Below are positions 2,780 to 41,315 of a DNA stretch of 43,263 nt, in pieces. The translations under genes and the position numbers were made by a program. Numbering within the stretch: position 1 is the stretch's first letter; every line of letters starts with the position of its first letter. The stretch is from positions 1 to 43,263 of the IMG/VR virus record IMGVR_UViG_3300037584_003690; one strand, 5' to 3'. The notes beneath the pieces are model-generated. The model had not been told where the DNA came from. It made no database searches and saw only the letters and a program-made list of their open reading frames with translations. Origin of the DNA: a virus.

Positions 2780-3083
2780 TAGAATAGTATCTAGTTTAAG
2801 AAAAGAATTAAAGAAACCTAATGGTAATACATCTGGGCGCTCTTTTATAGCTGCTTGGGATACTAAAAAAATAACTACTTATTCTAAAGAAGTTGTAAAT
2901 ACTAAACTAGATCCTAAGTTAAAAGGGGGACAAGAGTATGGGAAGCCTGTTAGGTTTTTGACTGATAAAGAAATAAAAGACTTAAAACAAACAAATAATT
3001 TAGAAGGATCAAGAAATCCAGGGCTTTTAAATAAAAGTAAAAAAGTTCAAGATTATATGGATCGTAAAAATAGACAGATATGA
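2769..3083 (+). CDS. Hypothetical basic protein, 104 aa
   Basis: Overlaps the previous gene by 11 nt. It is lysine-rich throughout, with the segments SFIAAWDTKKITTYSKEVVN and GGQEYGKPVRFLTDKEIK, and has a basic C-terminus (DYMDRKNRQI). I do not recognise it. Its small size, net positive charge and position before a conserved phage gene would fit a nucleic-acid- or capsid-associated protein, but that is inference only. Confidence 0.55.
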   Translation: MNFNRIVSSLRKELKKPNGNTSGRSFIAAWDTKKITTYSKEVVNTKLDPKLKGGQEYGKPVRFLTDKEIKDLKQTNNLEGSRNPGLLNKSKKVQDYMDRKNRQI

Positions 3084-3208
3084 TAGAATTTATAGAACAT
3101 ATGTTAGGACTGTGTGGGGAATCCCATCCTAATTTAATAACAATTATTCCTATAGTAGGATTAGTAATATATACAATTAAAAGAGTATGGCGTCATTATT
3201 CGATCTAA
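3080..3208 (+). CDS. 42-aa single-pass membrane microprotein
   Basis: ATG at 3080 overlaps the previous stop (ATGA). The frame runs 42 codons to TAA at 3206-3208, overlapping the next gene by 22 nt. The product begins MIEFIEHMLGLCGESHPN, continues into one hydrophobic segment (LITIIPIVGLVIYTI) and ends with a basic tail (KRVWRHYSI). The layout suggests a one-helix inner-membrane protein with its C-terminus in the cytoplasm. The CGESHPNL motif looks like small conserved proteins I associate with Bacteroidota phages, but I cannot verify this. Overlaps with both neighbours and a coherent membrane topology support a real gene. Confidence 0.55.
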   Translation: MIEFIEHMLGLCGESHPNLITIIPIVGLVIYTIKRVWRHYSI

Positions 3209-19630: not shown

Positions 19631-20464
19631 ATGACAGAAGGAACTGTAATTGTGAAAGCGCATAAAAAACACGCTTGGTCAGGATTTCATAGATTCCCTA
19701 AATGTAAAGACACGGTCATAGCTACCTACGGAAGAGGTGGCTATGATACCGGTCTTACACCAGAGGAAGAAACGAGACTTGAAGGTGTGTTAAATTTATC
19801 CGCTGGCACGTTAAATAAATTTTCAGAATATTGGCAAGATTACGCTGTTATATTAACTGATAAAGAAAAAGTTTTAAAACTAGATCGTCCTAGAGATTTT
19901 CTAGATTATAAACTCTTAACTAGAAGTGAAAAAGTAGCGAACTCCGTAAATGAAACTGAAGATTGGCCCAAAGCAATATATGTATTATATGATGCTGAGG
20001 AAGACGCCAAAAAAGATAATTTAAAAGTTAAAGAGAAAAGAAAAGCATATAAGCAATTTAATTCGATGACTATTAGCGAGATGAAAAATGTATTAAAAAT
20101 AATGGGTAAAAGAGCAGATAATGCTTCAGATGCACTTATTGAAAATACATTAGCAGACATCGTTGAACAAGAGTCTGAAAAATTTAATGAAACTATGGCT
20201 CTTCCAGACTTTAAGACTAGGGTTTTGATAGAGAATTTAGTTAATAATAATGCTCTTAGAATTAGAGGTGGACATTATATGTTCGGTGATGATCCTATAG
20301 GACATGATTTACAATCTGCAATTATCTATTTAAAGGATCCAAAAAATCAGGATATTGTATTATCGCTAAAAGCGAGACTACAGGGAACAACTAGTAGTGT
20401 CAAGGACATTGCTACCGATGATACCAAAATGCCTAAGAAGGCCAAAAAAGTGAAACAGAAGTAA
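19631..20464 (+). CDS. Post-capsid conserved-looking protein, 277 aa
   Basis: Lies 25 nt after the major capsid gene and overlaps the connector gene (TAATG). The N-terminal domain (EGTVIVKAHKKHAWSGFHRF, IATYGRGGYDTGLTPEEE) is followed by a helical middle. The C-terminus (RIRGGHYMFGDDPIGHDLQS) contains an aromatic-glycine turn, then a polybasic tail (KMPKKAKKVKQK). I recognise no named family. Position suggests a head-completion or capsid-associated protein. Confidence 0.6.
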   Translation: MTEGTVIVKAHKKHAWSGFHRFPKCKDTVIATYGRGGYDTGLTPEEETRLEGVLNLSAGTLNKFSEYWQDYAVILTDKEKVLKLDRPRDFLDYKLLTRSEKVANSVNETEDWPKAIYVLYDAEEDAKKDNLKVKEKRKAYKQFNSMTISEMKNVLKIMGKRADNASDALIENTLADIVEQESEKFNETMALPDFKTRVLIENLVNNNALRIRGGHYMFGDDPIGHDLQSAIIYLKDPKNQDIVLSLKARLQGTTSSVKDIATDDTKMPKKAKKVKQK

Positions 20465-21162
20465 TGACTGTAGCGGAAATGCATATACAATTCAAGGTGG
20501 GGTTAGATAAGACTGATAGTCTTAACTACCCTAACTTTGAACCTGAAGAAGTTGATCTTTGGCTTAATAAAGCCCAAGAAAAATTTGTAAAAACACGATA
20601 TTCACATGATGTCAAAAGAGAAACTTTTGAAGAAACTCAAAAAAGAACTGATGATTTACGTGAAGTTGTGCAGGAAGTTACATTAATTCCTGCTGCCACA
20701 CAAACCCCGGTAAAGCCAAATGGAGTATTATTTACTTTACCCGATGGTACGTTTGGTGGATTTCCTATATATTGGTTTGCAGTTAATGAAGAATGTGAAG
20801 TTAGCTGGCAAAATTGTGATAACAATACAGTATATAAAAGGAAAAACGTAAAACCCATTCAACACGATGATTATAATAAAATCATTGGGGATCCGTTTAA
20901 TAAGCCTGACAAAAATAAAATTGTTAGACTTATGCACGGAGGAAATGTTGAGTTAATAGGAGATGGTACTTATGATATTAATAGGTATCTGTTGAGATAT
21001 ATAAAGAGACCAGAACAGATAAATCTAGTTAACAATAATGATTGCGAATTAGCTGATCATACTCATGATGAAATTGTAACCATGGCGGTTGGAATGGCAT
21101 TAGAAAATACAGCTAACCCTAGATTTCAAACTCATATGGTTGAAGCTATATCTCAAGAATAA
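20464..21162 (+). CDS. Head-tail connector/adaptor candidate, 232 aa
   Basis: Opens with helices typical of adaptor proteins: FKVGLDKTDSLNYPNF, then EVDLWLNKAQEKFVKTRY. This resembles ring proteins that dock under the portal in crAss-like phages. A central beta insertion (GVLFTLPDGTFGGFPIYWFA) and a C-terminal helix (DEIVTMAVGMALENTANPRF) follow. The final helix pattern of a conserved histidine and a long amphipathic stretch is common in head-tail joining proteins. It overlaps its upstream neighbour by 1 nt. Confidence 0.65.
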   Translation: MTVAEMHIQFKVGLDKTDSLNYPNFEPEEVDLWLNKAQEKFVKTRYSHDVKRETFEETQKRTDDLREVVQEVTLIPAATQTPVKPNGVLFTLPDGTFGGFPIYWFAVNEECEVSWQNCDNNTVYKRKNVKPIQHDDYNKIIGDPFNKPDKNKIVRLMHGGNVELIGDGTYDINRYLLRYIKRPEQINLVNNNDCELADHTHDEIVTMAVGMALENTANPRFQTHMVEAISQE

Positions 21163-23276: not shown

Positions 23277-24266
23277 ATGGCATGTGAAAATTGTGAAAAT
23301 GGATGTGCAGATCCAAATCTGTGCGCATGTGATTGTCAATCATGTGCAGAATCTAATGGGTGTGATATACCCGTAGGTGATACAGGACCTCAAGGTCCAA
23401 CAGGTCCAATGGGTCCTGCAGGTGCTGATGGTGCACCTGGAACTAACGGTGAAGATGGTGTCAACGGATGTTCTATTTTAAATGTATACTTAGCAGAAGG
23501 AGGAGAAACTGTAGACAGTGGATTTGCAGTTGAAGGAGATATTGTTATAGAAACAGGTCCAGCTCCAAGTCCATGTAGTCAAACTTATATAGCAGGAAAC
23601 ATAACAAATATAATTGAAGAAGGGGGTGGTAATTCTGGTAGTCTTCCTCCAGGTATTATTGTTATGTGGTCAGGATCAATTAGTGATATAGATGGATTAC
23701 CTAACTGGGCTATATGTGATGGTACTAATGGTACTCCAGATCTTAGAGGTAGATTTATAGTTATGCCTGATCAAGCTGCGGGTGCTCCACCTGCACTAGA
23801 TGCAAATAATAATCCTTTATGGCCAAATGTAGGTGACGTAGGAGGATTTCCTTTTACATGTTTAGCTCCAAATAATATTCCAGCACATATCCATAGTTTA
23901 GATAATGTAGATATATCTCTTTCACAAGGAGGTGCTCATTATCATCACTGGGCTGCTGATTTTACAGCAAACGTTCCTGCAAATATATTTGGTGGAGGTT
24001 CTGAAGATTTTGCTGCAGCTAGTAACTGGAATTGTAGTGAATGTGGTGGTGTAAGTAATCCTACATTTAGAATTACATTAGATCCTAGTAGTGGTAGTGA
24101 ATGTACTGGAGATAATGATCCTAGATGTGGAGCTCATATTCATGATGTAAATATGGATGGGGATACAGGAGATGGACAACCAGATTTGGGTTCTCCTGAT
24201 TTTGGGGATTGTTTTAATAACATTCCTCCTTATTATGCACTTGCTTTTATAATGAAAATATCTTAA
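23277..24266 (+). CDS. Collagen-like tail-collar fibre protein, 329 aa
   Basis: The N-terminus has 12 cysteines in 36 residues. About eight Gly-X-Y triplets follow (GDTGPQGPTGPMGPAGADG, residues 34-60), a short collagen-like trimeric stalk. Residues 122-175 match the phage tail-collar domain: PPGIIVMWSGS, WAICDGTNGTPDLRGRFIVM. The C-terminal part is rich in histidine pairs (HIHS, HYHHW, HIHD), as in receptor-binding tips that bind iron or zinc. It overlaps the next gene by 1 nt. A receptor-contact role is likely. Confidence 0.8.
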   Translation: MACENCENGCADPNLCACDCQSCAESNGCDIPVGDTGPQGPTGPMGPAGADGAPGTNGEDGVNGCSILNVYLAEGGETVDSGFAVEGDIVIETGPAPSPCSQTYIAGNITNIIEEGGGNSGSLPPGIIVMWSGSISDIDGLPNWAICDGTNGTPDLRGRFIVMPDQAAGAPPALDANNNPLWPNVGDVGGFPFTCLAPNNIPAHIHSLDNVDISLSQGGAHYHHWAADFTANVPANIFGGGSEDFAAASNWNCSECGGVSNPTFRITLDPSSGSECTGDNDPRCGAHIHDVNMDGDTGDGQPDLGSPDFGDCFNNIPPYYALAFIMKIS

Positions 24267-25003: not shown

Positions 25004-28000
25004 ATGGCAGCAGAAAAGTGGAAAAAATTAGTATTAGGTAATAGTGTAAAACAAGATAACGATAGTTATCCTCCTGTTTTATCCAGTACTCCAGCAGCAT
25101 TTAGTGCTCCTGCGGGTACTGCGTCAGTAGCAACTGATGCGGCTTATAACCCTGGTGTATCTTATTCTGCAGGTGATTTATTATTCTATACAGATGGTAA
25201 AACTGTATATGATTCTACTGGTGCTATCATGAATGGTGGTACTTTAAATGGATTAAATGGTGATAATAAATCAGCTCAAACAGCTGTAATTCTTAAAAGT
25301 AGTGAAACTCATTATTGGTGGATACTAACACATAATCCTGCAAACGGAAAAATCTATGTGCATAATGTTCTCATGACTGGTAATAGTGGTCGTGGAACAG
25401 TAGCTCAGAATCAAACTATAACTAGTGGTGGTTCAGCTGCTGGTTTTGTAGCTGTATCAGGCGCAACTACTGATAGGTTTAATGCTTTCTATAGTTCAGT
25501 TACAAGTCAGTATGGTTTTATGACACATTTAAAAGGTTCTAATAGACATGAGGTCTTTTTAATAACAGGTGTATCTTCACATCTTCCTGTATTTGGTTCT
25601 TTAGTTACAACTGCTATAGGTAATGTTTATGCAAATAATGATGCAGCTAATCATGCTACCATTAAGTTTAATGGAGATAATACAAAAATGGCTACTGTTT
25701 ACCAAGCATCTGTTGGTACTTCAGGAACTCCTGTTACAACTGCTACAGTAGAAGTATATGATCTTAATCCTGCAACAGGTGTACTTTCTGCTTTTAATTC
25801 TTTTACGGTTCCAATTAAAGATGCAGGACCTGTATCTCCAGGAAAAGGAAATGATGGTAGATTAAAAGGTTATGATTTAGAATGGGACTTTGATACAAGT
25901 ACATTATATGTTCCAGTATATGATGCAAGTAATGGTTTAGGAGTTAATTGGTATACTTTAAATGCTAGTAATGTTGTTACAGCTCAAGGGACTGTAGGTA
26001 AATCTATGAGTTCTTTAGGAAATAATGTTGATAAAGCCATATTTGGTATGTATAAAGATCCATATGCTGATCGTATATATTTAACAAAACCAGCTGTTGT
26101 AGGAACTTCAGGTGGATATAGTTCTGACTATAATGATATTTATGCTACTAATTCATTATCTGTAATAAGAGATACATCAGATCCTACTAATTCAGAGTTT
26201 ACTGAAACTGTTGCAACAACTGTTGCGGGAGACACAATAGGTAAAGGTACACCTACTAGACCTCTGGCAGGTGAAGGAACAACAGCAACAACTTCTTATC
26301 ATAGATTAATTCCATGTGATACTCAGAAAGAGTATATAATGGATACACTAGGATCTATTTGGGTTCTAGACGGAGTACTAGATGCTACGAAAGTTGCAGA
26401 TGTAAGTTCTATTTCTAATAGAGTAAATATAGCAGTACAGAAAGAAACTAACTTTATTTACTTATTAGCAGGTACAGGAGCTACACCAAAGATATATAAA
26501 ATAGATCCTGTTACAGGAAATGTTGATGCAGGTACTACTGTAAGTGGTACATCTATTACAGGATTCAAATCTATATCTAGTAAAAATGGGGATCCTCTTA
26601 AATTATATGGAGTAGTTGAAATAACTGGTCCTCACTATAATTATGCAGAAATAGTAATTGCTACAGGAGTGGCTACTAAAACTGCAGGTAATACAGCACA
26701 TGTAGCAGTAGATACTGCTTATATAGGTAGTACTTTATATATGGCATCTGGTGATGATCTATATAAAAATACAGGTCCAGGTACATGGGCTACTGTAGGA
26801 GCAAACACTTTAAGTAAAGATTATGAAGGTTTAGCTACTGATGATACTACATTATATGGTTATATAGAAGGTAAAAGATATACTATTAATACATCTACAG
26901 GTGCAGCTACTGATGGTAAAAGTATTACAATTAACTCAAGTACAGGTACTTGGAACTATACTGCGCAAGGTGCTGGTATAGTTAACGTAGCATATATTGA
27001 TACAAATAATGCATTATTAAGTCCTCATGAGGGTGATGTTGTTACAGTTGCTAACTATGCGGGTTGTTTTACTGTTTGGTTTGCAGTATCTGGTTCTGCT
27101 ACAGTAGGTGATATACTATCTGTTTCACCTGATTGTGGGTCATGTTCTGAAATTGAATCAGATCATTATTGTAAATTATTAGTAAGTTGTTGTGATTCAG
27201 GTTATAAAGGATTAGGTTTTACAAGAGAAATAGTTGGAACTAGTGATGATTCAACATGTAAAGTAGGTAGTTATTATGAAATAACAGATAATGCTCAAAA
27301 CAATGATCAGTTAAATAGATGTGTAGAAGTACAGTCTTCTGATGATTCATTATATATAATAGGGGATTCTAATGGTTATAAAGTAGACTTAACTACTGGA
27401 ATATTAGATACTCAACCTATTATAGGTGGTACTGATATAGCTTTTAATAAACATGGTGTAGGATTTATACCTAGAGGATCTTCTTTGTATTACACAATAC
27501 CCGCGAATGGTGTTGTACCTGGTGGAAGTTCTACAACTATTACTGTACCTCAATCTACTACTGTTAGTTTTAATTATTCAGATGAGCTTATTACAGGAGG
27601 TGTTGTTAGTGGTGTAACTCAAGTATCTAGAAATTCTATTAATAAAAAAGGAGTATTAACTACTATAAATACTCTAACAAATACTAATGTTCAATTAACA
27701 GGAGATCTTGCAGTAGATAAAATTACAGGTGAATATTATTGTATAGGTGATAGTTCACCTACAGCCACACCTGTATATAATGATTTATTTAAATTAGATC
27801 CTTCTACTTTAACTCATACAGTTATTGCTGATTTAACATCTACATTATCTTTGAATGCAAATCAGACTGTTAAAGCTATAGAGATTGTTAAAGATTCTTG
27901 CTTTGTACTTGTTTGGGATTCTAATAATTTTGCTTCCACTCTTTACAAAATAGTTAAAGATACAGGTGCTTTAATTTCTACATTACCTGTTATAAAATCA

Positions 28001-31000
28001 GATGGTGATACAAAATTTAGATTCCCTCCTAGTGGATTAGGTTATAATAACCCATGTCTATACTGGGATTCAGGTGCTTTTAAATTAGTAAACTATTCAA
28101 GTTGTTCTACCTGCTTTGCTTCTACAACAAGTAAAAACTGCTGTTATGAATTAGTAGATTGTGCTACAGGTATTAGTACAATTACAAGAACAGATGTGTC
28201 TGCTTATTTAGGACAGGTGATTGTAACAGATACTCCAGGTAAATGTTATACAGTATATACATATGATAATTCAATTACATGTTCTGGTGTAGATGTAAAT
28301 GTTACCTCACAATATACTGATTGTGTTAGTTGTACAGGAGTACAAACTAAGTGTTATAGATTATTAAAATGTGGTGATCCTACATCAGATCCTAAATATA
28401 CTACAGAAGCTTTAACTAAAAATATTAAAGTTAAGAGAGGTAAGACAGTTCAATTAGAAGGAGAACTATTTTGTCGTAGTGTAGACGATCTAGGAAATGC
28501 AGTTGATTTAGTATCTGCATCAGCGCAGACAATCAAGACTACTAAAAAGTCTTGCAATACATGTAATTTTTATTTAAAATTAAAACAATGTAAAGCTCAG
28601 AATATTGTAAGGTATGTTGACTATGCAAGTAGTACAACACTACATGGACATATAGGAACAGGAGCAGTTAAAATTCAAGATCTTGGTAAAGGAGAGAATG
28701 GACATTGTTGGGAAATAGATTCTACTATTTATGGACCTACCCCAACATTAAGACCTACAGCTCAATTAGTTTTATCTGCACCAGATTGTATAACTTGTAA
28801 TGCACAAAATAATGAAGCAGTTGCTCCAGCATTTGTTAAAATAAATGGGTGTTGTAGTGATTTAAATCCAGGTCAAGATTTTGGTATACAAGAATATTAT
28901 ACTACAGATAGTAATCTGCTTGCTGCTCTTCTATCAGGAGATTTAGTTTTTTGGGGAAACCTTACAGATCCTAATGGAAATCTACTTGAAGCACAGTGTT
29001 TTAAAATAGAAATGTCACCTTTCCCAATAGCAACTAACCAACTATCACAAGTACAAATTGATGGAACTAGTAGTGATGCTGATAAGTGTTTGTCTTGTGA
29101 TCCTTTTTATGTAGCAAATTGCCAGACTGTAACTTCTACTAACTCTACTATGATGTTAAGTTGTTTTGCTGATCAACCAGTTTCAGTATTTAATAGTACA
29201 TTTAGTTCTGTTGATGATGATGCTAATAGAGCATTTAATTTTGTTGAAACAGATCTTATAACAGGTTGCTGGAAAAGATGTGTCACAGCAGATTATATTC
29301 ATGGGGCTAATTGGCTTTGGGGAAAGAGTAGTCTTTTAACATGGCAAAATAGTATGGGTATAGCCACTCCAAGTACAGCTATATCGCCTACTAATATGGG
29401 TACAATAGATGCAAATTTAAATGATAATAATTTCTTTACTAAATTTGGAAGTACAGTACATAGTGCTCATGAACCTGTTACTATAGGAGGTAAAGAGTAT
29501 ACTAGAGGTGCTATAATGTTTTATTCGGATGGTAGATTTGTATACAATTCTAGTCATCTAACAATGACGGGTAGTACTAGTGGTGGAAGTCAATTATTAA
29601 ATGGAGGTGTTTCTCCTGGTGGGAATTTGCAATACGCTTCCCAACAATGTATAACGGTTCCAAAACCTGATAGTGATAGATTTCCAGGTAGTACAACATA
29701 TAAACAATATTATTTAATATATCAAAGACCAGGAAATCTTCGTCCTCAATATGCTGTTATAAATATGGATACAGCAGATGGATTAGGAGAAATAATTTCT
29801 TATAATCAAGAGTTACCTTATCTTCCTGGTTCAACTATGTATTCGACTGAAAGATTAACAGTAACATCAAGACCTGCAATAGCAGATAGTGATGAAGATT
29901 TTTATTGGGTTTTAGATGTAATACCATATGATCCTCCAACAGGACTTGTTATGGTACCTTCACCTCCGGGTAAAATACGTGCACGAAGAGTAGATTCTAC
30001 TGGAATAGGGCAACCTGTAATTACTAGCATGAGTGGTAGTATAAATGATTTACCAGGGAAAATAGATGGAGATAGACAAAATTTAAGTGAGTGGGCGCGT
30101 ATTAAAGTTTCTCCTAATAATAGTCATATAGCTATTACAGGTAATAAGTTAGGAATAGGATGGACTCAGTTATATACTTTTGATGAAAATACTGGAGAGT
30201 GTGTTGCTATTTGGCAAGACATAGTTGCTGAAGGAATGAGTACTTGTGGGGGAGACTTACCCCCAGGTGAAGGGAATGAAGGTTTTTTACCATTTACTCA
30301 TGGAGTTGAATTTGGTGATAATGCTTTATTTACTTATAAGTCTGGTATGTCTTTTACACATGCTTATCAATGTAATGAATATATGGGTGATCTGTTTGGA
30401 GAACTAGGAATGACCTGGGTTAATAATGGTGGGATATGGGAAAGTCAAACTAGTGTTAATACACTAGGAATGGGACTTCCAGCTACAAGTAAGCCTATTT
30501 TATCATGGGTTAATTTAGATACTTTAGCAGAAGGACAACAAACTCAAGACATAGATCAGTATTTACCATCGGTTGGATCTACTTTATTTAAAGTAAGTAA
30601 TCCATCTACAAGATTACAAAATCAAATTCCAGGTGACTTAGATTTTAATCCACAATGGTGTGCTGATGGATTCATTGAGAAACCTAATGTAATAAGACCT
30701 CTACTACAAGCTAGTATTGTAACAGATTTACATAGAGGTCCTGATGGAGCTTTATATGCAGGACTTGTATTAGGTAATTCTTCAGGTAGTATTTCAAATC
30801 AAGTAAATTGGAGACAAACATTTTTAGGTATAGGAGAATTAACTCCTGAGTATGATTTTACTTTTCAAGGAGCTGCTAATACTAGTGAGTGGAATCCTCA
30901 ATTAGACGGTAATAGTTCACAAAGAATTGCTTCTACTAGATGTTTAAGAAAATTTAATATTAGTAATATATTAAATGGTGATCTGATTACTCCAAGTATC

Positions 31001-34000
31001 AATGATGCTGAAATGGATGGGTATGTATTACCATCAGGAGACGCAGCTCATTTAATTAGAAGGCAAGTTCTTGCTAATGACTCTACAATAGATTTTGGAT
31101 TTCCTCAGTTTATAAAACGTAGATGTTTTTCAGATGATAATAATGCTCTTGCACTTACAATTCAAAATGATAATTTTAGTTGTGCTACCTCAAATCTTTT
31201 TGGAGAATGTTTTAATCTTCCAGATAATCCTGATGTATTTAAAATAGTTAATTGTGGCCAAAGCTCTGAAGGATGTGCGAGTGCAAATGATTGTCAAGAC
31301 TTTACGCCAGGTACAGCAATACAATTAGATGGAGAAAGCCAAAGATTTGGAATGACTGAATATTTAAATCAAGATATATGGGATGCAGTTCAGCAATTAG
31401 CCTCAGGACCTCAAGCTGTATACATGACTTACAGTTTTCCAAGAGAAGGTAGTATAACTCCTAGTAGTTATTATTCTTCAGCTTGTATAGGTGAGTCACC
31501 TGGAGCAGGTGATTTTGCTAGTGGTCAGTTTACTATACCTAAACATGAAAGTGGTCCTACTACAGATAATGCTCAAGGTAATGGTAGTAATGGTGTTATC
31601 TATGATAAAACTTATACAATAACAGAAGCTCAATTTAGAGCAGAAGTAGGTAAAGCTTTTGCTCAAGTTTCACAATTATTTGAAAGTACTTTTAGTCCTC
31701 AGAATGGTTACCCTAATCAGTTAACTTTACGATTTACAGATCTTGGAAAAGAAACAGGTACAGATTCGGCTTTGCCGACTTCTGATTTAGATAATTGGAG
31801 TACAAGTGCTCCAATAGGTTTTACAACTACAACGGGTGCTTCAGGTGTTGGAGATTTTAGAATATGGATGGGAAGAAGATCTGATTGGTGTTATACCAAT
31901 GGTGGTAATCCAGGAGGATTTCAAACTAGTGGATGTACCGGATGTAATTATACAGGATCGGCTAGTGGTGCTTTAGCTTGGGCTACTGGACCTAGTATGT
32001 TTAATGTTACTGCAGGTTATGATGGAACTTCTGGTACATATAATACAGATTCATCTACAGCATTTAGAACAAACGGGAGTCAAAATATAATATTTGACGT
32101 TAACGAAAATTGGAGAAAGACTACTGATACACAAGTATTTGGTACTATAGAAATATTAAGAGTTGGTATTCATGAAATCTTACATTCATTTGGATTTCAT
32201 CATGCTTATGAAAGTATGGCTTTACAACCTAATTGTCAAGGAACAACAGGTTCTGGAACAACAGGTTCTTTTGTAGCTCAGGGAGGTTTTACATGTTCTG
32301 AAAATGGTATATATAATACTGGGTGTAATGCAAACCCTGGTAGTTTTGGGGATCCTGATGCGATAATGGCCCCGACTGCAGATAGTACTAGCTTTACAAG
32401 TATTTATGCTCCTGGAGAAGATACTGCTTATGATCCAACTGCTTGTTATATGAGTGGTGGTTCTGCAGCTGCAATTCAAGATAGAACAATGGTTTGTCAG
32501 ATTTATGGATTTGGATTAGGAGATGCTCCAGATACTTTCTGCGAACCTTTTGATTGTCCTCTTTGTGTATCTCAATTTTATTATTCTGATGACGAATTAT
32601 TTTGGCCGTATGTTGGAGAAGCAGGTAACAATACTTCATTTACTTGGGATCCAGGAACTGGATTATCTTGTTGGTATGCGGAGCTTGCAGGTACATTACC
32701 AGAAGGCGAATCTCTTACTACAATAACTCCTGTTGCAGGTTATATAGATTGTGATGCTTGTAATGTACAATTTCAAGATCCTAGATGGAGATTAGTTTTA
32801 TGTGATGAGTGTCCAGAAAATGCTGGGAATGGAGCACCTGGTGAAATTATTACATCTACTAATATGAATGTTCATTGTACTCCTGGAGCTCTTGATGATG
32901 ACCCTTCAATTTCAGATGTACTTGAATTAGTAGGATATATAGGATGTTATAAAGTAGATTGTGAATACGATCCTTATTTAGATTATCAAACTGTTGCAGT
33001 ACCAGTAGTTGTATCACAAATACAAGATAATTGTGACACATGTTGTAATGCAACTGTTACACAATGTTATACAGTAACACAATGTGCTGATACAAATCCA
33101 ATAAGTTTTGTGATGATTGGAGATCAATATTGGGGAGGTATTTCTGATTTAGGAGATTATGTATTTAAGTTTGAACAATTACCTGCTGATGTTTTAGCAT
33201 TAGGTTTGACAAATGATGATTGCTTTACTGTTGCATATTGTGGGCAGTGTAATCAAACAACTTGTAATCCTTTAATAGGCCCAGGTCTTTTAACTGTAAT
33301 AGAATCGTGGCCAGGATGTTATAGTTGTTTATATGAAAATCCTAATCAAGATTGTTTTACATTAGTTTGTTGTGATAGTAGTGGAGATCAATTAATTAAT
33401 GTTTTACCAAATGCAGATTTAAATAGTGCATTTGCTTCAGGATCGGTTGTAAGAATAGATCAATATCCAGACAGTCAAGGTAATCCTAGATGTTGGAATA
33501 TTGAAACTCAAGATATATGTAATCCAGAAATAGCAGTAACAGTATCAGATATATTTGTTAACTGTGGATTTTGTACTGCGGGATCATCTATAGGTGGTTG
33601 TACTGATCCAAGCGCATTAAATTATTGTCCAGGATGTGTTACATGTTTATCACAAACAGGTGTTTTGAATGATTGTTGTATATATGAAGGATGTCCTTTA
33701 TCTTGTCAAGATCCAACTGCTACAAATTATAATCCTAACAATACATGTGATTGTAGTGGAGTAGAAGGTGGAAGTGACACTTCATGTTGTAGTTATCCTG
33801 GAGTAGTTATTCCACCAGATGGTATTGAAGTAACTTATGAAAAAGATTGTGTTAATTGTTTAGACTGGACAACTGTAGATAAAGTATTTACAAATGCTGG
33901 AGAATTATGTGGATCTTGTTTTCCTCCTAAAGGATTAACATTACGAGAATATGATTGTAATTTATCAAATGTAGAAACTATAATTCCTCCTATAGAAGTT

Positions 34001-35824
34001 CCTGGAGGATGTACTAATCCAGATGCATTAAATTATGATGCAGCAGCTGAATGGGATGATGGTTCTTGTTATTATACATCTGCATGTACAGATCCTAATG
34101 CATGTAACTTCGATCCTAGTGCAGTTGAAAATATACCAGGTGAATGTATATATCCAGGACAATGTGGATGTCAAGATTTTACAGACTCATGTGTTGGATG
34201 TCTGGATTTAACAGCCTGTAACTATTGTGCAGATTGTACTGTTGCTGATAACTCATTATGTGAATATGCATCTTGTTATGGGTGTACAGATCCGGAAGCA
34301 GAGAATTATTGTCCAGAATGTATAATGTGTCCAGATGCTGCTTGTTGTGCTAGCAATGTACAATCATGTCTTGATAATAGAAATATATATGTATTTTATG
34401 ATATGACGTCTATATATCCAAGTACCTCAGGAGAAGTAAAACTTCAAGCATGTGCAGATCTTAGAAATTTAGTAGAAGCTGCTATGGCACAAATATTGGA
34501 TGATAATAATATAACTAATTTTAGTGGTAATATTTATCATCTACCTGTAGGTTACTCGTGGTTTGGAAAAATAACAGTTACAAATTGGAAAAACAGTAGT
34601 ACTGATCCAGCAAATTGGGATGCTTATGAAACTCCTACTAGCGGAACTCAGGATAGTAACAGGAGTGCTTATTGGTGGCAGAATGTTTATACCGCATCTA
34701 CTTTTAGTATTGATTTTCCAGGAGCTAATGATGTTTTAGCTAATTATGACAATCAGATGGGTCAACTTCTTACTGGAGGTAGTGAAAGATGGATAAAATG
34801 GATGATGTACCCAATACATGGTAATTCTCCATCTTTACATCCTAATTTAAGAATACCTTTCTCTACTGTAAATGATGTTTATAAAACTACAGGAGAGGAG
34901 ACTCCCGATCTAACTGACTCAGCACGTCTTCTTATTAAGTCTATGAATTCTAATGGCTTAGATCAAAATGGTAATTATGTAAATAATTTACCTGGTACAC
35001 AACTTAATCCATTTAATGATCCACCAGGCGAAGAAGGGTTTAGTGATGTATATCATGCATTTGAAGGTGGGGATACTAATGCTATTTGTCTTATGTTTGT
35101 AGATGAATCTAATCCTGTGTATCATACACAAGAGAATTTGGAATTTAATAGTAGTACTCTCCAGACCTGGCAGAACGAGTGTGGTCCTGGTATATTAAAT
35201 AATTCTACTGGAAGTTCTGGTAATGCATCGTGGTATGGCACAGGAGATGCTGTAGATGTTTATGATACTTATATTACTACACCTTTATGTATTGATCATA
35301 CTAGATTTACTGAGGCTTGGAATTATGGGTATGATACGAATGGAGCAGCTTCTATGACTATTAAACACGCTAATGGACCAATAGGTACTGGTTATGCAAA
35401 TGGTAATTTTAATGCTATTATATTCCCTACTAAAATGTCAGGCACGCCTGGAGGTTTAAATAATCAAATGTTTTGCTCAACTTTATATGGTGTTGTAGGA
35501 CAAGGAAATCCTTCAGAGTTAGGTCATATCAGTTGTGCAGACTTTATAGATTTACCTTGGACTAGCGCATGCGCAAGTATGGCTCCTTATACAGATACGA
35601 ATTTTCCTAATCCTTACTCATGGTTAGGTAATTCTAATGTAACTACTGCTTTACATGATGGTTCAACTATTCCTCCTGGTAGATATAGTTCTCAAGGATT
35701 TAGTTTAGCTAATTATGGAGTAACTTTTAAAATACCGGGAGCAGGTCAAGAATTCCTTACAATAAGTCAAGATGATTTAGCAGACGCAATACTACAAGGA
35801 TTATTGTGTAATAATGAGGGATAA
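25004..35824 (+). CDS. Giant cysteine-rich adhesin with metzincin protease motif, 3606 aa
   Basis: One uninterrupted frame. Residues 1-480 and about 1440-2060 look like beta-propellers of Bacteroidota surface proteins, with LLFYTDGKTVYDSTG near residue 55 and IMFYSDGRFVYNSSH near 1501. CxxC-bounded modules of the form CYxLxxC...CWxV recur at about 710-760, 1030-1370 and 2515-2855. A zinc-protease domain lies at about 2080-2510, with HEILHSFGFHH (His2390, Glu2391, His2394, His2400) and a later Met-turn, DAIMAP (Met2455). GCTDPxAxNY repeats fill about 2865-3117. A C-terminal domain opens NIYVFYDMTSIY (about 3126). No signal peptide, so it is probably a virion tail adhesin rather than an exported protein. 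Confidence 0.8.
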   Translation: MAAEKWKKLVLGNSVKQDNDSYPPVLSSTPAAFSAPAGTASVATDAAYNPGVSYSAGDLLFYTDGKTVYDSTGAIMNGGTLNGLNGDNKSAQTAVILKSSETHYWWILTHNPANGKIYVHNVLMTGNSGRGTVAQNQTITSGGSAAGFVAVSGATTDRFNAFYSSVTSQYGFMTHLKGSNRHEVFLITGVSSHLPVFGSLVTTAIGNVYANNDAANHATIKFNGDNTKMATVYQASVGTSGTPVTTATVEVYDLNPATGVLSAFNSFTVPIKDAGPVSPGKGNDGRLKGYDLEWDFDTSTLYVPVYDASNGLGVNWYTLNASNVVTAQGTVGKSMSSLGNNVDKAIFGMYKDPYADRIYLTKPAVVGTSGGYSSDYNDIYATNSLSVIRDTSDPTNSEFTETVATTVAGDTIGKGTPTRPLAGEGTTATTSYHRLIPCDTQKEYIMDTLGSIWVLDGVLDATKVADVSSISNRVNIAVQKETNFIYLLAGTGATPKIYKIDPVTGNVDAGTTVSGTSITGFKSISSKNGDPLKLYGVVEITGPHYNYAEIVIATGVATKTAGNTAHVAVDTAYIGSTLYMASGDDLYKNTGPGTWATVGANTLSKDYEGLATDDTTLYGYIEGKRYTINTSTGAATDGKSITINSSTGTWNYTAQGAGIVNVAYIDTNNALLSPHEGDVVTVANYAGCFTVWFAVSGSATVGDILSVSPDCGSCSEIESDHYCKLLVSCCDSGYKGLGFTREIVGTSDDSTCKVGSYYEITDNAQNNDQLNRCVEVQSSDDSLYIIGDSNGYKVDLTTGILDTQPIIGGTDIAFNKHGVGFIPRGSSLYYTIPANGVVPGGSSTTITVPQSTTVSFNYSDELITGGVVSGVTQVSRNSINKKGVLTTINTLTNTNVQLTGDLAVDKITGEYYCIGDSSPTATPVYNDLFKLDPSTLTHTVIADLTSTLSLNANQTVKAIEIVKDSCFVLVWDSNNFASTLYKIVKDTGALISTLPVIKSDGDTKFRFPPSGLGYNNPCLYWDSGAFKLVNYSSCSTCFASTTSKNCCYELVDCATGISTITRTDVSAYLGQVIVTDTPGKCYTVYTYDNSITCSGVDVNVTSQYTDCVSCTGVQTKCYRLLKCGDPTSDPKYTTEALTKNIKVKRGKTVQLEGELFCRSVDDLGNAVDLVSASAQTIKTTKKSCNTCNFYLKLKQCKAQNIVRYVDYASSTTLHGHIGTGAVKIQDLGKGENGHCWEIDSTIYGPTPTLRPTAQLVLSAPDCITCNAQNNEAVAPAFVKINGCCSDLNPGQDFGIQEYYTTDSNLLAALLSGDLVFWGNLTDPNGNLLEAQCFKIEMSPFPIATNQLSQVQIDGTSSDADKCLSCDPFYVANCQTVTSTNSTMMLSCFADQPVSVFNSTFSSVDDDANRAFNFVETDLITGCWKRCVTADYIHGANWLWGKSSLLTWQNSMGIATPSTAISPTNMGTIDANLNDNNFFTKFGSTVHSAHEPVTIGGKEYTRGAIMFYSDGRFVYNSSHLTMTGSTSGGSQLLNGGVSPGGNLQYASQQCITVPKPDSDRFPGSTTYKQYYLIYQRPGNLRPQYAVINMDTADGLGEIISYNQELPYLPGSTMYSTERLTVTSRPAIADSDEDFYWVLDVIPYDPPTGLVMVPSPPGKIRARRVDSTGIGQPVITSMSGSINDLPGKIDGDRQNLSEWARIKVSPNNSHIAITGNKLGIGWTQLYTFDENTGECVAIWQDIVAEGMSTCGGDLPPGEGNEGFLPFTHGVEFGDNALFTYKSGMSFTHAYQCNEYMGDLFGELGMTWVNNGGIWESQTSVNTLGMGLPATSKPILSWVNLDTLAEGQQTQDIDQYLPSVGSTLFKVSNPSTRLQNQIPGDLDFNPQWCADGFIEKPNVIRPLLQASIVTDLHRGPDGALYAGLVLGNSSGSISNQVNWRQTFLGIGELTPEYDFTFQGAANTSEWNPQLDGNSSQRIASTRCLRKFNISNILNGDLITPSINDAEMDGYVLPSGDAAHLIRRQVLANDSTIDFGFPQFIKRRCFSDDNNALALTIQNDNFSCATSNLFGECFNLPDNPDVFKIVNCGQSSEGCASANDCQDFTPGTAIQLDGESQRFGMTEYLNQDIWDAVQQLASGPQAVYMTYSFPREGSITPSSYYSSACIGESPGAGDFASGQFTIPKHESGPTTDNAQGNGSNGVIYDKTYTITEAQFRAEVGKAFAQVSQLFESTFSPQNGYPNQLTLRFTDLGKETGTDSALPTSDLDNWSTSAPIGFTTTTGASGVGDFRIWMGRRSDWCYTNGGNPGGFQTSGCTGCNYTGSASGALAWATGPSMFNVTAGYDGTSGTYNTDSSTAFRTNGSQNIIFDVNENWRKTTDTQVFGTIEILRVGIHEILHSFGFHHAYESMALQPNCQGTTGSGTTGSFVAQGGFTCSENGIYNTGCNANPGSFGDPDAIMAPTADSTSFTSIYAPGEDTAYDPTACYMSGGSAAAIQDRTMVCQIYGFGLGDAPDTFCEPFDCPLCVSQFYYSDDELFWPYVGEAGNNTSFTWDPGTGLSCWYAELAGTLPEGESLTTITPVAGYIDCDACNVQFQDPRWRLVLCDECPENAGNGAPGEIITSTNMNVHCTPGALDDDPSISDVLELVGYIGCYKVDCEYDPYLDYQTVAVPVVVSQIQDNCDTCCNATVTQCYTVTQCADTNPISFVMIGDQYWGGISDLGDYVFKFEQLPADVLALGLTNDDCFTVAYCGQCNQTTCNPLIGPGLLTVIESWPGCYSCLYENPNQDCFTLVCCDSSGDQLINVLPNADLNSAFASGSVVRIDQYPDSQGNPRCWNIETQDICNPEIAVTVSDIFVNCGFCTAGSSIGGCTDPSALNYCPGCVTCLSQTGVLNDCCIYEGCPLSCQDPTATNYNPNNTCDCSGVEGGSDTSCCSYPGVVIPPDGIEVTYEKDCVNCLDWTTVDKVFTNAGELCGSCFPPKGLTLREYDCNLSNVETIIPPIEVPGGCTNPDALNYDAAAEWDDGSCYYTSACTDPNACNFDPSAVENIPGECIYPGQCGCQDFTDSCVGCLDLTACNYCADCTVADNSLCEYASCYGCTDPEAENYCPECIMCPDAACCASNVQSCLDNRNIYVFYDMTSIYPSTSGEVKLQACADLRNLVEAAMAQILDDNNITNFSGNIYHLPVGYSWFGKITVTNWKNSSTDPANWDAYETPTSGTQDSNRSAYWWQNVYTASTFSIDFPGANDVLANYDNQMGQLLTGGSERWIKWMMYPIHGNSPSLHPNLRIPFSTVNDVYKTTGEETPDLTDSARLLIKSMNSNGLDQNGNYVNNLPGTQLNPFNDPPGEEGFSDVYHAFEGGDTNAICLMFVDESNPVYHTQENLEFNSSTLQTWQNECGPGILNNSTGSSGNASWYGTGDAVDVYDTYITTPLCIDHTRFTEAWNYGYDTNGAASMTIKHANGPIGTGYANGNFNAIIFPTKMSGTPGGLNNQMFCSTLYGVVGQGNPSELGHISCADFIDLPWTSACASMAPYTDTNFPNPYSWLGNSNVTTALHDGSTIPPGRYSSQGFSLANYGVTFKIPGAGQEFLTISQDDLADAILQGLLCNNEG

Positions 35825-37665: not shown

Positions 37666-38268
37666 ATGAAATTAGATCCTAAGTGGATAGTAATAGCGGG
37701 TTTATTATTATATATATTATTCTTACAGGAATGTGGAAGTAATATTAATAATGGATCTACAATAGAATCAGAAGTGACTACAATACAGACAGATACTATT
37801 TATAAAACAAGAATAGATACTGTTAAGTTTGTAGAAACTGTAGAAAGAATTGTAGAAGTAGAAATACTAAAACCTGTTAAAATAGAAGTACCAGATGATG
37901 TATGGGATGAACTTAATATTAATGAATATAACAATCCATACTCTGATAGTTTAATAGATGGTACTATTTACACAAGAGTAAATGGTGCATTATTAGAACA
38001 GAGTTTAAGTTATGTTCCTAAGTTTCCTCAATACATTTTGAAGATAGATACTGTTATAGTTAGTACTATAGCTAATACAGTACAGACATTAAAACCTCCT
38101 TTTACACTTGATGTAGGAGCAGAGGTTGGGGGAAATAAAGAGATGTTTAACTTCTCTCCTAAGATTGGATTTACTAGTAGGAATGGATTTTCATATTCTT
38201 ATAGATATGGTATATTAGATAAAACCCATAGCGTAGGAATAATGTATAAACTTAAATTTAATAAATAG
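37666..38268 (+). CDS. Membrane-anchored spanin-like protein, 200 aa
   Basis: One N-terminal membrane helix (WIVIAGLLLYILFLQECGS) without a convincing lipobox. A periplasmic stalk follows with DT-aromatic repeats (IQTDTIYKTRIDTVKFVETV), like the stalk of the secreted protein at 6062-6769. The C-terminus has amphipathic strands (FTLDVGAEVGG, FNFSPKIGFTSRNGFSYSYR, VGIMYKLKFNK) that could engage the outer membrane. An inner-membrane anchor, periplasm-spanning stalk and outer-membrane-type end fit a unimolecular spanin. The TAG stop overlaps the GTG start of the next gene. Confidence 0.5.
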   Translation: MKLDPKWIVIAGLLLYILFLQECGSNINNGSTIESEVTTIQTDTIYKTRIDTVKFVETVERIVEVEILKPVKIEVPDDVWDELNINEYNNPYSDSLIDGTIYTRVNGALLEQSLSYVPKFPQYILKIDTVIVSTIANTVQTLKPPFTLDVGAEVGGNKEMFNFSPKIGFTSRNGFSYSYRYGILDKTHSVGIMYKLKFNK

Positions 38269-39401
38269 TGATATTACAATATACAATGCAGGGACAACTG
38301 GTTGGTCGGTACCAAGATGTTTCTGAAGCTTCAAGTAAAACTGATATAGATAATGGAAGTATACATAAAACACTTCGAGGAGATAGAGCTACAGCAGGTG
38401 GTTTTATGTGGAGACGGGAAGATGAAGTAAGTGAGAATGTTAGTTCTAATGAACTTAAAGAGGCCATACATGCGCAAGGATTAAGTGAAGATGAGGTCAA
38501 GTCAGTTAAGATCTGGCAAACAATGGGAGGTGAAACTAGATACTCTATAGTAACTAGAGATGGTGGTAAAGCTTCTCAGAAATTTAAAGATGAGTTCTTT
38601 GAAAAATTGAAAACAATAGCTCCGGCTAAAAAAGATCGTCAGTATACAAAAACGGATGACAATCCAATAGTATACGAAATATCTTTACCTGATATACATT
38701 ATGGTAAAGAAACTGATGAGAATGTAAAAACAGGTGAAATGCATTTTATGGATTCTGTTAAAGAGTTACATGCAAGAGCATCAGGATTAAATATACAGAG
38801 GTTTTTATTACCAATAGGAAACGATGGTATGAACTCTGAAGGTATGAGAAAGACTACAACTAAAGGAACACCACAAAGTGATTCAATAGATTGGCAAAAA
38901 TCTTTCATTGGATATACCAAATTAATAATTGACGCAGCTAATTATTTAGCTGAATATGCTCCGGTAGATATTGTTATAGTACAGGGGAATCATGACTTTG
39001 AGCGTATGTTTTATGCGGGAGAAGTTTTATCAGCTTGGTTTAAAAACGACCAAAACGTGTTAGTTGATAATGGTTTAGATAGTAGAAAGTACTATGAGTA
39101 TGGTGTAAATATGTTAATGTTTACGCATGGAGATAAAGAGAAAGCTGCTGAGATGCCACTTATAATGGCAACTGAGCAACCATTGATGTTCTCAAGGACT
39201 AAATTTAGAGAAGTTCATTGTGGACATTTGCATAAAGAAATGGTAAATGAATATAGAGGAATTAAAGTAAGATTTATTCCTTCTATATGTGCAAATGATT
39301 CATGGCACAAATTAATGGGTTATCAATCTTTGCGATGCGCACAAGCGTATATATGGAATAAGGAAAAGGGTTGTGAAGGTTACTTACAAGTTAATATATA
39401 A
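38268..39401 (+). CDS. NUMOD1-fused calcineurin-like metallophosphoesterase, 377 aa
   Basis: The GTG start overlaps the previous stop; it is favoured because the NUMOD1 pattern begins immediately. Residues 1-50 match NUMOD1 (ILQYTMQGQLVGRYQDVSEA ... GSIHKTLRGDRATAGGFMWR), a DNA-binding module usual in homing endonucleases. Residues 135-360 carry the metallophosphoesterase motifs: LPDIHYG (Asp142, His144), GNDG, GNHDFE (Asn241, His242), FTHGDK (His287) and CGHLHKE (His320, His322). The dimetal site looks complete. Likely a DNA phosphodiesterase, nuclease or repair-type enzyme. It lies between membrane proteins and ring proteins, an unusual place for an enzyme. Confidence 0.8.
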   Translation: MILQYTMQGQLVGRYQDVSEASSKTDIDNGSIHKTLRGDRATAGGFMWRREDEVSENVSSNELKEAIHAQGLSEDEVKSVKIWQTMGGETRYSIVTRDGGKASQKFKDEFFEKLKTIAPAKKDRQYTKTDDNPIVYEISLPDIHYGKETDENVKTGEMHFMDSVKELHARASGLNIQRFLLPIGNDGMNSEGMRKTTTKGTPQSDSIDWQKSFIGYTKLIIDAANYLAEYAPVDIVIVQGNHDFERMFYAGEVLSAWFKNDQNVLVDNGLDSRKYYEYGVNMLMFTHGDKEKAAEMPLIMATEQPLMFSRTKFREVHCGHLHKEMVNEYRGIKVRFIPSICANDSWHKLMGYQSLRCAQAYIWNKEKGCEGYLQVNI

Positions 39402-39404
39402 ATA

Positions 39405-40157
39405 ATGGCATTAACGTTAAATAAATTGGTTTATGATATTAAGAATATCGCTTATGGTGGTATAACGTCTGATGATGCAAAAATAAGTGATAGACAGATT
39501 GCATACTGGGTAATGCAAGAGAGATCTATGCTATTGTCGCAGATTATGGGTAGAAAGATGCGTGTTGCAGCATCGTGTATAGAGACGTTAGAAAGGGTAT
39601 TTTTAGAACCGGTTGATGCTGCTGAAGCTTGTGAGGTGGATTTAGGAATTCATGTACTAAAATCTGTTAAACCTATTCCAAGAACTGTACAACGAAATGA
39701 ACGGGATAGTATATTAGCTGTAGAATCTTTGGACGGACAGAGAGCTTTTTCTGAGACTACTGCGTTTAGGAAAAAGTGGAACAAGTATAATAAGTATACT
39801 GGTTCTAAGAACAGATGGTATATTAAAGATAGTTATCTATATGTTATATGTGACTTATTAATTGATGCCGTTAAGGTCACTGGAGTCTATGAAGACGCTG
39901 AAGAAGTATGGATGCATAATAGATGCTTAGATGAAATGGGAGAACAGGATCCAGAAACTGGACCTTATGATACCGAATATTTTGATTGCCAGTATTCTTG
40001 GGATGAACCTTTTCCGATTTCCATGACGCTGGCAGAAAATGTTACAAGTATTGTTTTACAAAAAAGAATGCAGATAACATTAACTTTACCAAATGATGAA
40101 ACTAATAACGCTAAAGGAGATGGAGAGCAAAACATGCAAGTCCCTGCAGGTAAATAG
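39405..40157 (+). CDS. Tail ring/adaptor protein, 250 aa
   Basis: The N-terminal helices (LVYDIKNIAYGGITSDDAKI, SDRQIAYWVMQERSML) match conserved neck proteins of crAss-like phages that stack below the portal. The middle has AEACEVDLGIHVLKSVKPIP, and an aromatic strand region (NRWYIKDSYLYVICD) follows. The C-terminus has a Trp/Phe/Pro-rich turn and a helix ending near IVLQKRMQITLTLP. It begins 3 nt after the metallophosphoesterase stop; its 3' end overlaps the next gene by 65 nt. Confidence 0.7.
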   Translation: MALTLNKLVYDIKNIAYGGITSDDAKISDRQIAYWVMQERSMLLSQIMGRKMRVAASCIETLERVFLEPVDAAEACEVDLGIHVLKSVKPIPRTVQRNERDSILAVESLDGQRAFSETTAFRKKWNKYNKYTGSKNRWYIKDSYLYVICDLLIDAVKVTGVYEDAEEVWMHNRCLDEMGEQDPETGPYDTEYFDCQYSWDEPFPISMTLAENVTSIVLQKRMQITLTLPNDETNNAKGDGEQNMQVPAGK

Positions 40158-40566
40158 TTGCACTTTAAAAAGTGCTTATAAAAGTTATGATGACTTTTAT
40201 GATGTAGGTTATAAAAAATACAGAGCAATCTGTGAAGACTTTAATAAGAAGATTATAGAAGATATTCTTATGAAAGCAAAAGAGTTTAAAATGCCTTATA
40301 GATTAGGTACTCTTAGAATAAAAAAGAAGAAGATGAATTATTCTAAGAAAAATAAATTAAAGATTAATTGGCTAGAAACCAATAAACATAAGAAAGTTAT
40401 TTATCACTTAAATGATCATACAGACGGTTTTAATTATAGATGGTTTTGGTCAAAGATAAACGCGGTAATAAAGAATAAAAGTGTATATAGCTTTCAAGCT
40501 ACTCGTACTAATAAAAGACGATTAGCCGGATTATTAAAAAAGAAAAAAGTAGACTATTTTGAATGA
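40093..40566 (+). CDS. Conserved basic phage protein between ring proteins, 157 aa
   Basis: The conserved core starts at about residue 25 (LKSAYKSYDDFYDVGYKKYR) and continues with ICEDFNKKIIEDIL, the PYRLGTLRIKKKK motif, a KVIYHLNDHTDGFNYRWFW motif and an ATRTNKRRLAGLL tail. It is basic, with many aromatics. I associate this pattern with a protein found in many Bacteroidota phages at the same place before the hub gene. An assembly or cargo role is possible but unproven. ATG 40093 overlaps the previous gene by 65 nt; ATG 40120 is an equally possible start. It overlaps the next gene by 4 nt. Confidence 0.7.
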   Translation: MMKLITLKEMESKTCKSLQVNSCTLKSAYKSYDDFYDVGYKKYRAICEDFNKKIIEDILMKAKEFKMPYRLGTLRIKKKKMNYSKKNKLKINWLETNKHKKVIYHLNDHTDGFNYRWFWSKINAVIKNKSVYSFQATRTNKRRLAGLLKKKKVDYFE

Positions 40567-41315
40567 TTTATAAATATGTATCAGTATATGAAATAATAGA
40601 AGGAGTATATAGAGACTCAGGTATCCAAGAAGAGCTTGACATTTGGGATGTAATTGAATGGGCAGGTGAAGCTTTAGAACTTATAGGAGCTGGGGTATCT
40701 TATGTAGAGTTAATAGGAGAGTTATGTGTCTCAGGACATAAAGTAAAATTACCTTGCAACTTCCATTCTTTAGAACAAATTTCATATAACGGAATACCAC
40801 TACCTCTATGCTCTGGAACATTCGGGGCTATATCTACAAACTCTGGAAACGCTACAAAGAATGTGATTGATGGTAAGGAAGTAGATGCTACTAACTTTCC
40901 TTTAACAGATTCTGAAAATAAAAATGGTAATTGTTATTATATTAATGATAATTTTATTGTTACGTCTTTTGATAAAGGATGTTTGTTAGTATCTTTTAGA
41001 GGTATAAACGTAGACAAAGAAGGTTTTCCTATGATACCTGATAATGTTAGTTATAAGAAAGCTGTAAAAGCTTATATACAAACTATGGTTGATAGAATAT
41101 GGTGGAGAAGAGGATCATTGCAAGAGGCTGTATTTAGAGATAGCCAACGAGATTGGGAATGGTATGTAAAACAAGCGCGAGGATCGGCAAGTATGCCTAA
41201 TCTAGATCAAATGGAAAATATTAAGAATCAATGGGTTAAATTAAAACCTAATATGAATTCATCAAGGACATTCTTTACTGATCTAGCTAGTCCTGGTCGA
41301 AGGAAACTTAAGTAA
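40563..41315 (+). CDS. Second tail ring/adaptor protein, 250 aa
   Basis: Overlaps the previous gene by 4 nt (ATGA). The N-terminal helix set (VYEIIEGVYRDSGIQEELDI, WDVIEWAGEALELIGAG) is followed by a beta domain with an insertion (ISYNGIPLPLCSGTF to NFIVTSFDKGCLLVSFRGIN) and C-terminal helices (IQTMVDRIWWRRGSLQEAVF). This is the fold order of ring proteins in crAss-like neck assemblies. It has the same length as the gene at 39405-40157, suggesting distant relatives that stack in one tail. It ends in a TAATG overlap with the hub gene. Confidence 0.7.
   Translation: MIYKYVSVYEIIEGVYRDSGIQEELDIWDVIEWAGEALELIGAGVSYVELIGELCVSGHKVKLPCNFHSLEQISYNGIPLPLCSGTFGAISTNSGNATKNVIDGKEVDATNFPLTDSENKNGNCYYINDNFIVTSFDKGCLLVSFRGINVDKEGFPMIPDNVSYKKAVKAYIQTMVDRIWWRRGSLQEAVFRDSQRDWEWYVKQARGSASMPNLDQMENIKNQWVKLKPNMNSSRTFFTDLASPGRRKLK

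Follow-up and report, generated by a model that had tools for sequence, protein, structure and literature searches.

The window analysed here, the whole 43,263-nucleotide stretch of virus DNA in IMG/VR record IMGVR_UViG_3300037584_003690 (positions 1 to 43,263, one strand), contains a giant open reading frame (ORF) of 3606 amino acids (aa) in which a matrixin-like metzincin domain can be recognized. Our best explanation, to which we assign a probability of roughly 0.5, is that the virus is an uncultured crAss-like phage and that the ORF specifies an appendage protein of its tail, within which an active zinc endopeptidase of matrixin type most likely cuts a protein layer on the outer surface of the host. 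This explanation carries reservations: the structural models are of modest confidence, the Foldseek E-values are marginal, the spacing from the third His to the Met is not classical, and there is a homologous family in which most of the members compared have lost the zinc ligands.

The initial annotation of this DNA described an intact metzincin motif, HEILHSFGFHH, at residues 2390-2400 and, 55 residues past its third His (His2400), the sequence DAIMAP with Met2455. Both were confirmed in the 3606-aa ORF, and their positions are given with those of the other features in Table 1. The pattern HExxH occurs once in the giant protein, at the aa 2390 motif, compared with 0.016 occurrences expected from composition. 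The full pattern HExxHxxGxx[H/D] occurs once in the six frames of the whole window, with 1.7e-5 occurrences expected by chance in the giant protein; this expectation, together with conservation in relatives, rules out a chance motif.

Table 1. Coordinates of the protease domain, of its neighbours in the window and of stand-alone homologues on other phage contigs.
Feature	Position (nt)	Strand	Basis
Homologue of crAss001 tail ring proteins R3/R4	20464..21162	+	Profile search: gp34 4.6e-13, gp35 4.4e-11
Collagen-like / tail-collar protein, upstream of giant ORF	23277..24266	+	PHROG tail and tail-collar families, best 2.1e-10
Giant ORF, 3606 aa, probable tail-appendage protein containing the protease domain	25004..35824	+	Open frame, homologues, gene position
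Predicted matrixin-type metzincin domain, about aa 2120-2509	31361..32530	+	Pfam PF00413, relatives, Foldseek
FDVNENWR strand, aa 2364-2371	32093..32116	+	Aligned with HFDGDENW of karilysin; replaced in L015
Putative zinc-binding motif HEILHSFGFHH, aa 2390-2400	32171..32203	+	H, E, H, G, H invariant in alignment A3
Met-turn candidate PDAIMAP around Met2455 (Met codon 32366-32368)	32354..32374	+	Met invariant in alignment A3
Phosphoesterase-like gene, directly upstream of R2 homologue	38268-39401		
Homologue of crAss001 tail ring protein R2	39405..40157	+	gp40 1e-12; phi14:2 g074 9.4e-21
Homologue of crAss001 tail ring protein R1	40563..41315	+	gp43 2.6e-23
Stand-alone matrixin-like ORF, contig L111	5794-6882		
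Stand-alone matrixin-like ORF, contigs L121-L123	6001-7089		
Stand-alone matrixin-like ORF, contig L124	6007-7104		

Several types of comparison place the domain close to the matrixins. The Pfam Matrixin model (Peptidase_M10, PF00413; cut-off 24) matched the segment with 30.5 bits (E 3.9e-7), and scoring the whole 3606-aa protein gave 22.8 bits, just under that cut-off. All ten members of A3, an alignment of the domain in the crAss group, matched the same model with E-values of up to 0.1, and fewer of them were matched by reprolysin models; the relative L104 was the only one with a reprolysin score exceeding its matrixin score, with both below cut-off. A search of the PDB with the single domain sequence gave no meaningful match. 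With the A3 profile, karilysin of Tannerella forsythia came first (E 0.014), followed by meprin and many matrix metalloproteases (MMPs), E-values that are marginal when taken alone; the karilysin alignment spans both its FDGDENW strand and the zinc motif. Astacin, reprolysin and pappalysin families (M12, M43) were considered and were weaker than matrixin, with astacin/meprin and PAPP-A appearing as weak PDB matches only.

Comparisons of predicted structures gave a similar picture. Two AlphaFold models of the domain, built from 10 and 14 sequences, were of modest confidence overall (pTM 0.66 and 0.69, mean pLDDT 53 and 58), with pLDDT of roughly 75-93 in the helix-strand core and active-site helix. 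When these modest-confidence models were compared with the PDB by Foldseek, almost only MMP catalytic domains were listed (best E 0.0026 and 0.0039), and karilysin was among the matches of the second model. These matches had E-values of about 0.003-0.2, probabilities of up to 1.0, and target-normalised TM-scores of about 0.4-0.58. In a library of viral structures (BFVD), the domain model matched the second part of an unnamed viral protein, A0A516LFR9 (E 3.5e-17, 27% identity), and granulovirus MMPs came next with weak matches (E 0.007-0.025).

Taken with the Pfam and PDB-profile results, the fold comparison supports the metzincin reading of the initial annotation and narrows it to a predicted matrixin-like metzincin. 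The consensus HExxHxxGxxH/D is invariant in A3, and the candidate Met-turn methionine that follows the third ligand, Met2455, corresponds to the invariant column M378. The short matrixin spacing between third His and Met is absent, with 55 residues here compared with the classical 8 in stand-alone homologues, and because of this the domain is classed as matrixin-like and not as a classical matrixin. Like known matrixins (MEROPS M10A, PF00413, with karilysin nearest by profile), it has HExxHxxGxxH, an upstream FDxxENW-type strand and a Met-turn candidate of the form [AS][IL]M, and its modest-confidence models match MMP folds with marginal E-values; unlike them, it is embedded in a 3606-aa phage protein and has its unusually long His-to-Met interval.

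The motif is conserved throughout the crAss group. HExxHxxGxxH was kept in 13 of 13 distinct contigs, all of which also have a Met-turn candidate, ambiguous in L004. The interval from third His to Met is 41-59 residues in this group, longer in L004, and is Cys-rich in most relatives. Searching with the motif itself could bias such a result, and this was checked with motif-free patterns and a neighbouring gene. Peptide patterns without the zinc motif found L002, L003 and L004, and a later pattern search that again left it out found the contigs behind L104, L105 and L107 and re-found others. The conserved phosphoesterase neighbour gene led to L015 and L022, and to further re-finds. Two relatives (L007 and L009) were first found by patterns that included the zinc motif and were re-found by patterns without it. 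All 13 contigs were thereby found without selecting on the motif. The ten sequences of A3 are invariant at 26 of 439 positions, and all six metzincin residues are among these (hypergeometric 2.4e-8, with positions treated as independent). A simple dN/dS estimate gave dN < dS in three pairs and was otherwise too unstable.

Giant ORFs were also examined on contigs that are more distantly related but share the phosphoesterase neighbour, and these yielded neither the domain nor a Pfam match. Cultured phages searched by tblastn gave no match for the domain, for the remainder of the giant protein or for relatives, and an annotated phage collection gave no match to the domain. Pattern scans of bacterial genomes yielded no confirmed relative, and a cellular origin was not found in them.

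A homologous domain occurs in phages of another type (L111 and L120-L125), where it makes up a matrixin-like ORF of its own, 362-365 aa long and lacking any extended partner region. It is homologous to the crAss-group domain by hhalign (E 1e-17 over 217 columns), and it adjoins a gene of collagen-like KGQKGEK repeats. In L124 the sequence (HEIGHALGAPHETNERSVMY) has its zinc ligands intact and spaced as in textbook matrixins, and stromelysin-1 is a match (E 0.0078). In the other four of five members compared (L111, L121, L122, and L123), the motif reads REIGNALGxPN and the zinc ligands are lost; L111 nevertheless scores above the Pfam Matrixin cut-off. The initial annotation had named loss of the motif in close homologues as one finding that would refute its reading. 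The loss was not seen there, since every close relative keeps the catalytic residues, and the loss in this distant family has to be set beside that conservation.

The homologues that lost their zinc ligands persist, so in the second lineage the fold can outlast catalysis. They lend some weight to the proposal that the metzincin fold of the giant protein serves adhesion, or structure through zinc stabilisation, as a binding module without proteolysis. We consider this unlikely, since the crAss-group sequences have diverged strongly and yet all keep the catalytic Glu and the three His, including L015, where the FDxNExW strand is changed. The two lineages provide a natural contrast at the level of sequence, with the zinc ligands lost in four of the five members compared in one and the catalytic set kept throughout the other.

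The position of the gene provides evidence on where the protein might act. The window is crAss-like and carries a structural module of Crassvirales type, with homologues of TerL (1.4e-61 in profile search), portal (8.3e-138), gp31 (weak), MCP (2.8e-43), gp33, R3/R4, R2, gp42, and R1 in the order of crAss001. The giant gene sits between the R3/R4 and R2 homologues. In crAss001, this interval includes the genes for the tail-fibre docking hub, gp38 and gp39 (PMC10172136). In Cellulophaga phage phi14:2, it holds virion proteins verified by mass spectrometry, including a pectate lyase of 1275 aa. Gene position and synteny with phi14:2 favour a tail-appendage role for the giant protein. The initial annotation proposed a surface protease on the phage particle, and a location on the tail is supported by this gene position and by the contents of the phi14:2 slot; its term for the giant protein, an adhesin, is best read as an interpretation. 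For the phosphoesterase-like gene of this region, identity between phages is 90-92%, against only 39-73% for their giant proteins. A metallophosphatase gene likewise adjoins R2 in phage phi14:2, and profile search did not link the window phosphoesterase to it.

An enzyme working away from the virion, either inside the cell or after release, at lysis or on host physiology, has a precedent in Mtz of Listeria monocytogenes, a secreted metzincin of phage origin that is not part of the virion and affects lysis (PMC8235301). Mtz resembles the domain described here in that it, too, combines a metzincin motif with a Met-turn and is encoded by a gene derived from a phage, and differs in having a signal peptide and in being paired with a TIMP-like lipoprotein (PMC8235301). 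No signal peptide is evident in the giant protein, its gene lies in a structural module between tail-ring genes, and the same slot in phi14:2 encodes virion proteins. These points make such a role very improbable, the least probable of those that we considered.

Family assignment, fold resemblance and conservation of the catalytic set were computed, and we infer that the domain binds zinc, is proteolytic and sits on the virion, and what kind of substrate it cuts. His2390, His2394, and His2400 would hold the zinc, Glu2391 would act as general base, and Met2455 would form the floor of the Met-turn. Displayed on the tail, the domain would work extracellularly at adsorption. Its target would most likely be the outer-surface protein layer of the host, such as an adhesin, a secreted surface protein, or a glycoprotein. 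Trimming of a host surface protein may then allow the tail to reach its receptor, as a protein-cutting counterpart of a capsule depolymerase. A host surface protein as substrate is only favoured over the receptor or the giant protein itself.

The main rival is that the substrate of an active domain is its own giant protein, or else a neighbouring fibre protein, cut either in assembly or after binding, leading to maturation or to release of the distal part. The domain is embedded, with about 1100 residues of the giant protein downstream, as could be the case for a processing domain. This arrangement is kept in homologues over the full length of the giant protein (L002 with 73% identity, L004 with 39%, and L003 with 30%). 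The second-lineage homologue stands alone, with no long partner, which suits a role acting in trans. Self-processing is a less likely reading, to which we give considerably less credence than to cleavage of host surface protein.

Sugar-cutting enzymes are common on phage tails. The retention of catalytic residues in every relative found within the phage group suggests that this virus may cut proteins, whereas sugars are the target of most phage tail enzymes known. A direct comparison is provided by the pectate lyase g086 of phi14:2, also a virion-associated enzyme encoded in the R3/R4-R2 interval; it differs in being annotated as cutting polysaccharide, and no sequence relation to the giant protein was found. 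Granulovirus MMPs, likewise of viral origin, match the domain model too; they differ in being insect-virus proteins, and their matches are weak. Matrixins are already known, as is the phage-derived secreted metzincin in Listeria (PMC8235301); the present case is a matrixin-like domain in a crAss-like giant protein. Literature searches, which covered open-licence papers, found no description of a virion-borne matrixin in a crAss-like phage. We put forward tentatively, at somewhat less than even odds, that a crAss-like clade has a dedicated tail-appendage matrixin-type protease where its relatives carry a polysaccharide-cutting enzyme, providing virion-borne proteolysis through a protein coat, and that a related pseudo-protease serves for binding in the other lineage. 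If the domain is active, it would provide a testable entry mechanism for environmental crassviruses and a marker for the clade. It would also offer a natural pair of homologous domains, one active and one inactive, with which to ask under what circumstances catalysis is required.

Other parts of the giant protein have features of their own. From reading of the sequence it appears to be internally duplicated, with GDLLFYTDGKTVYDS at about aa 57 and GAIMFYSDGRFVYNSSH at about aa 1502, and the duplicated parts could possibly be two propeller-like halves. A PDB search with the C-terminal part identified no relative. Repeats of the types GCTDPxALNYxP and CTDPxACNFDP are found at aa about 2968-3190; repeats of this type occur in secreted Bacteroidetes proteins, and those of the giant protein are possibly shared with surface proteins of the host.
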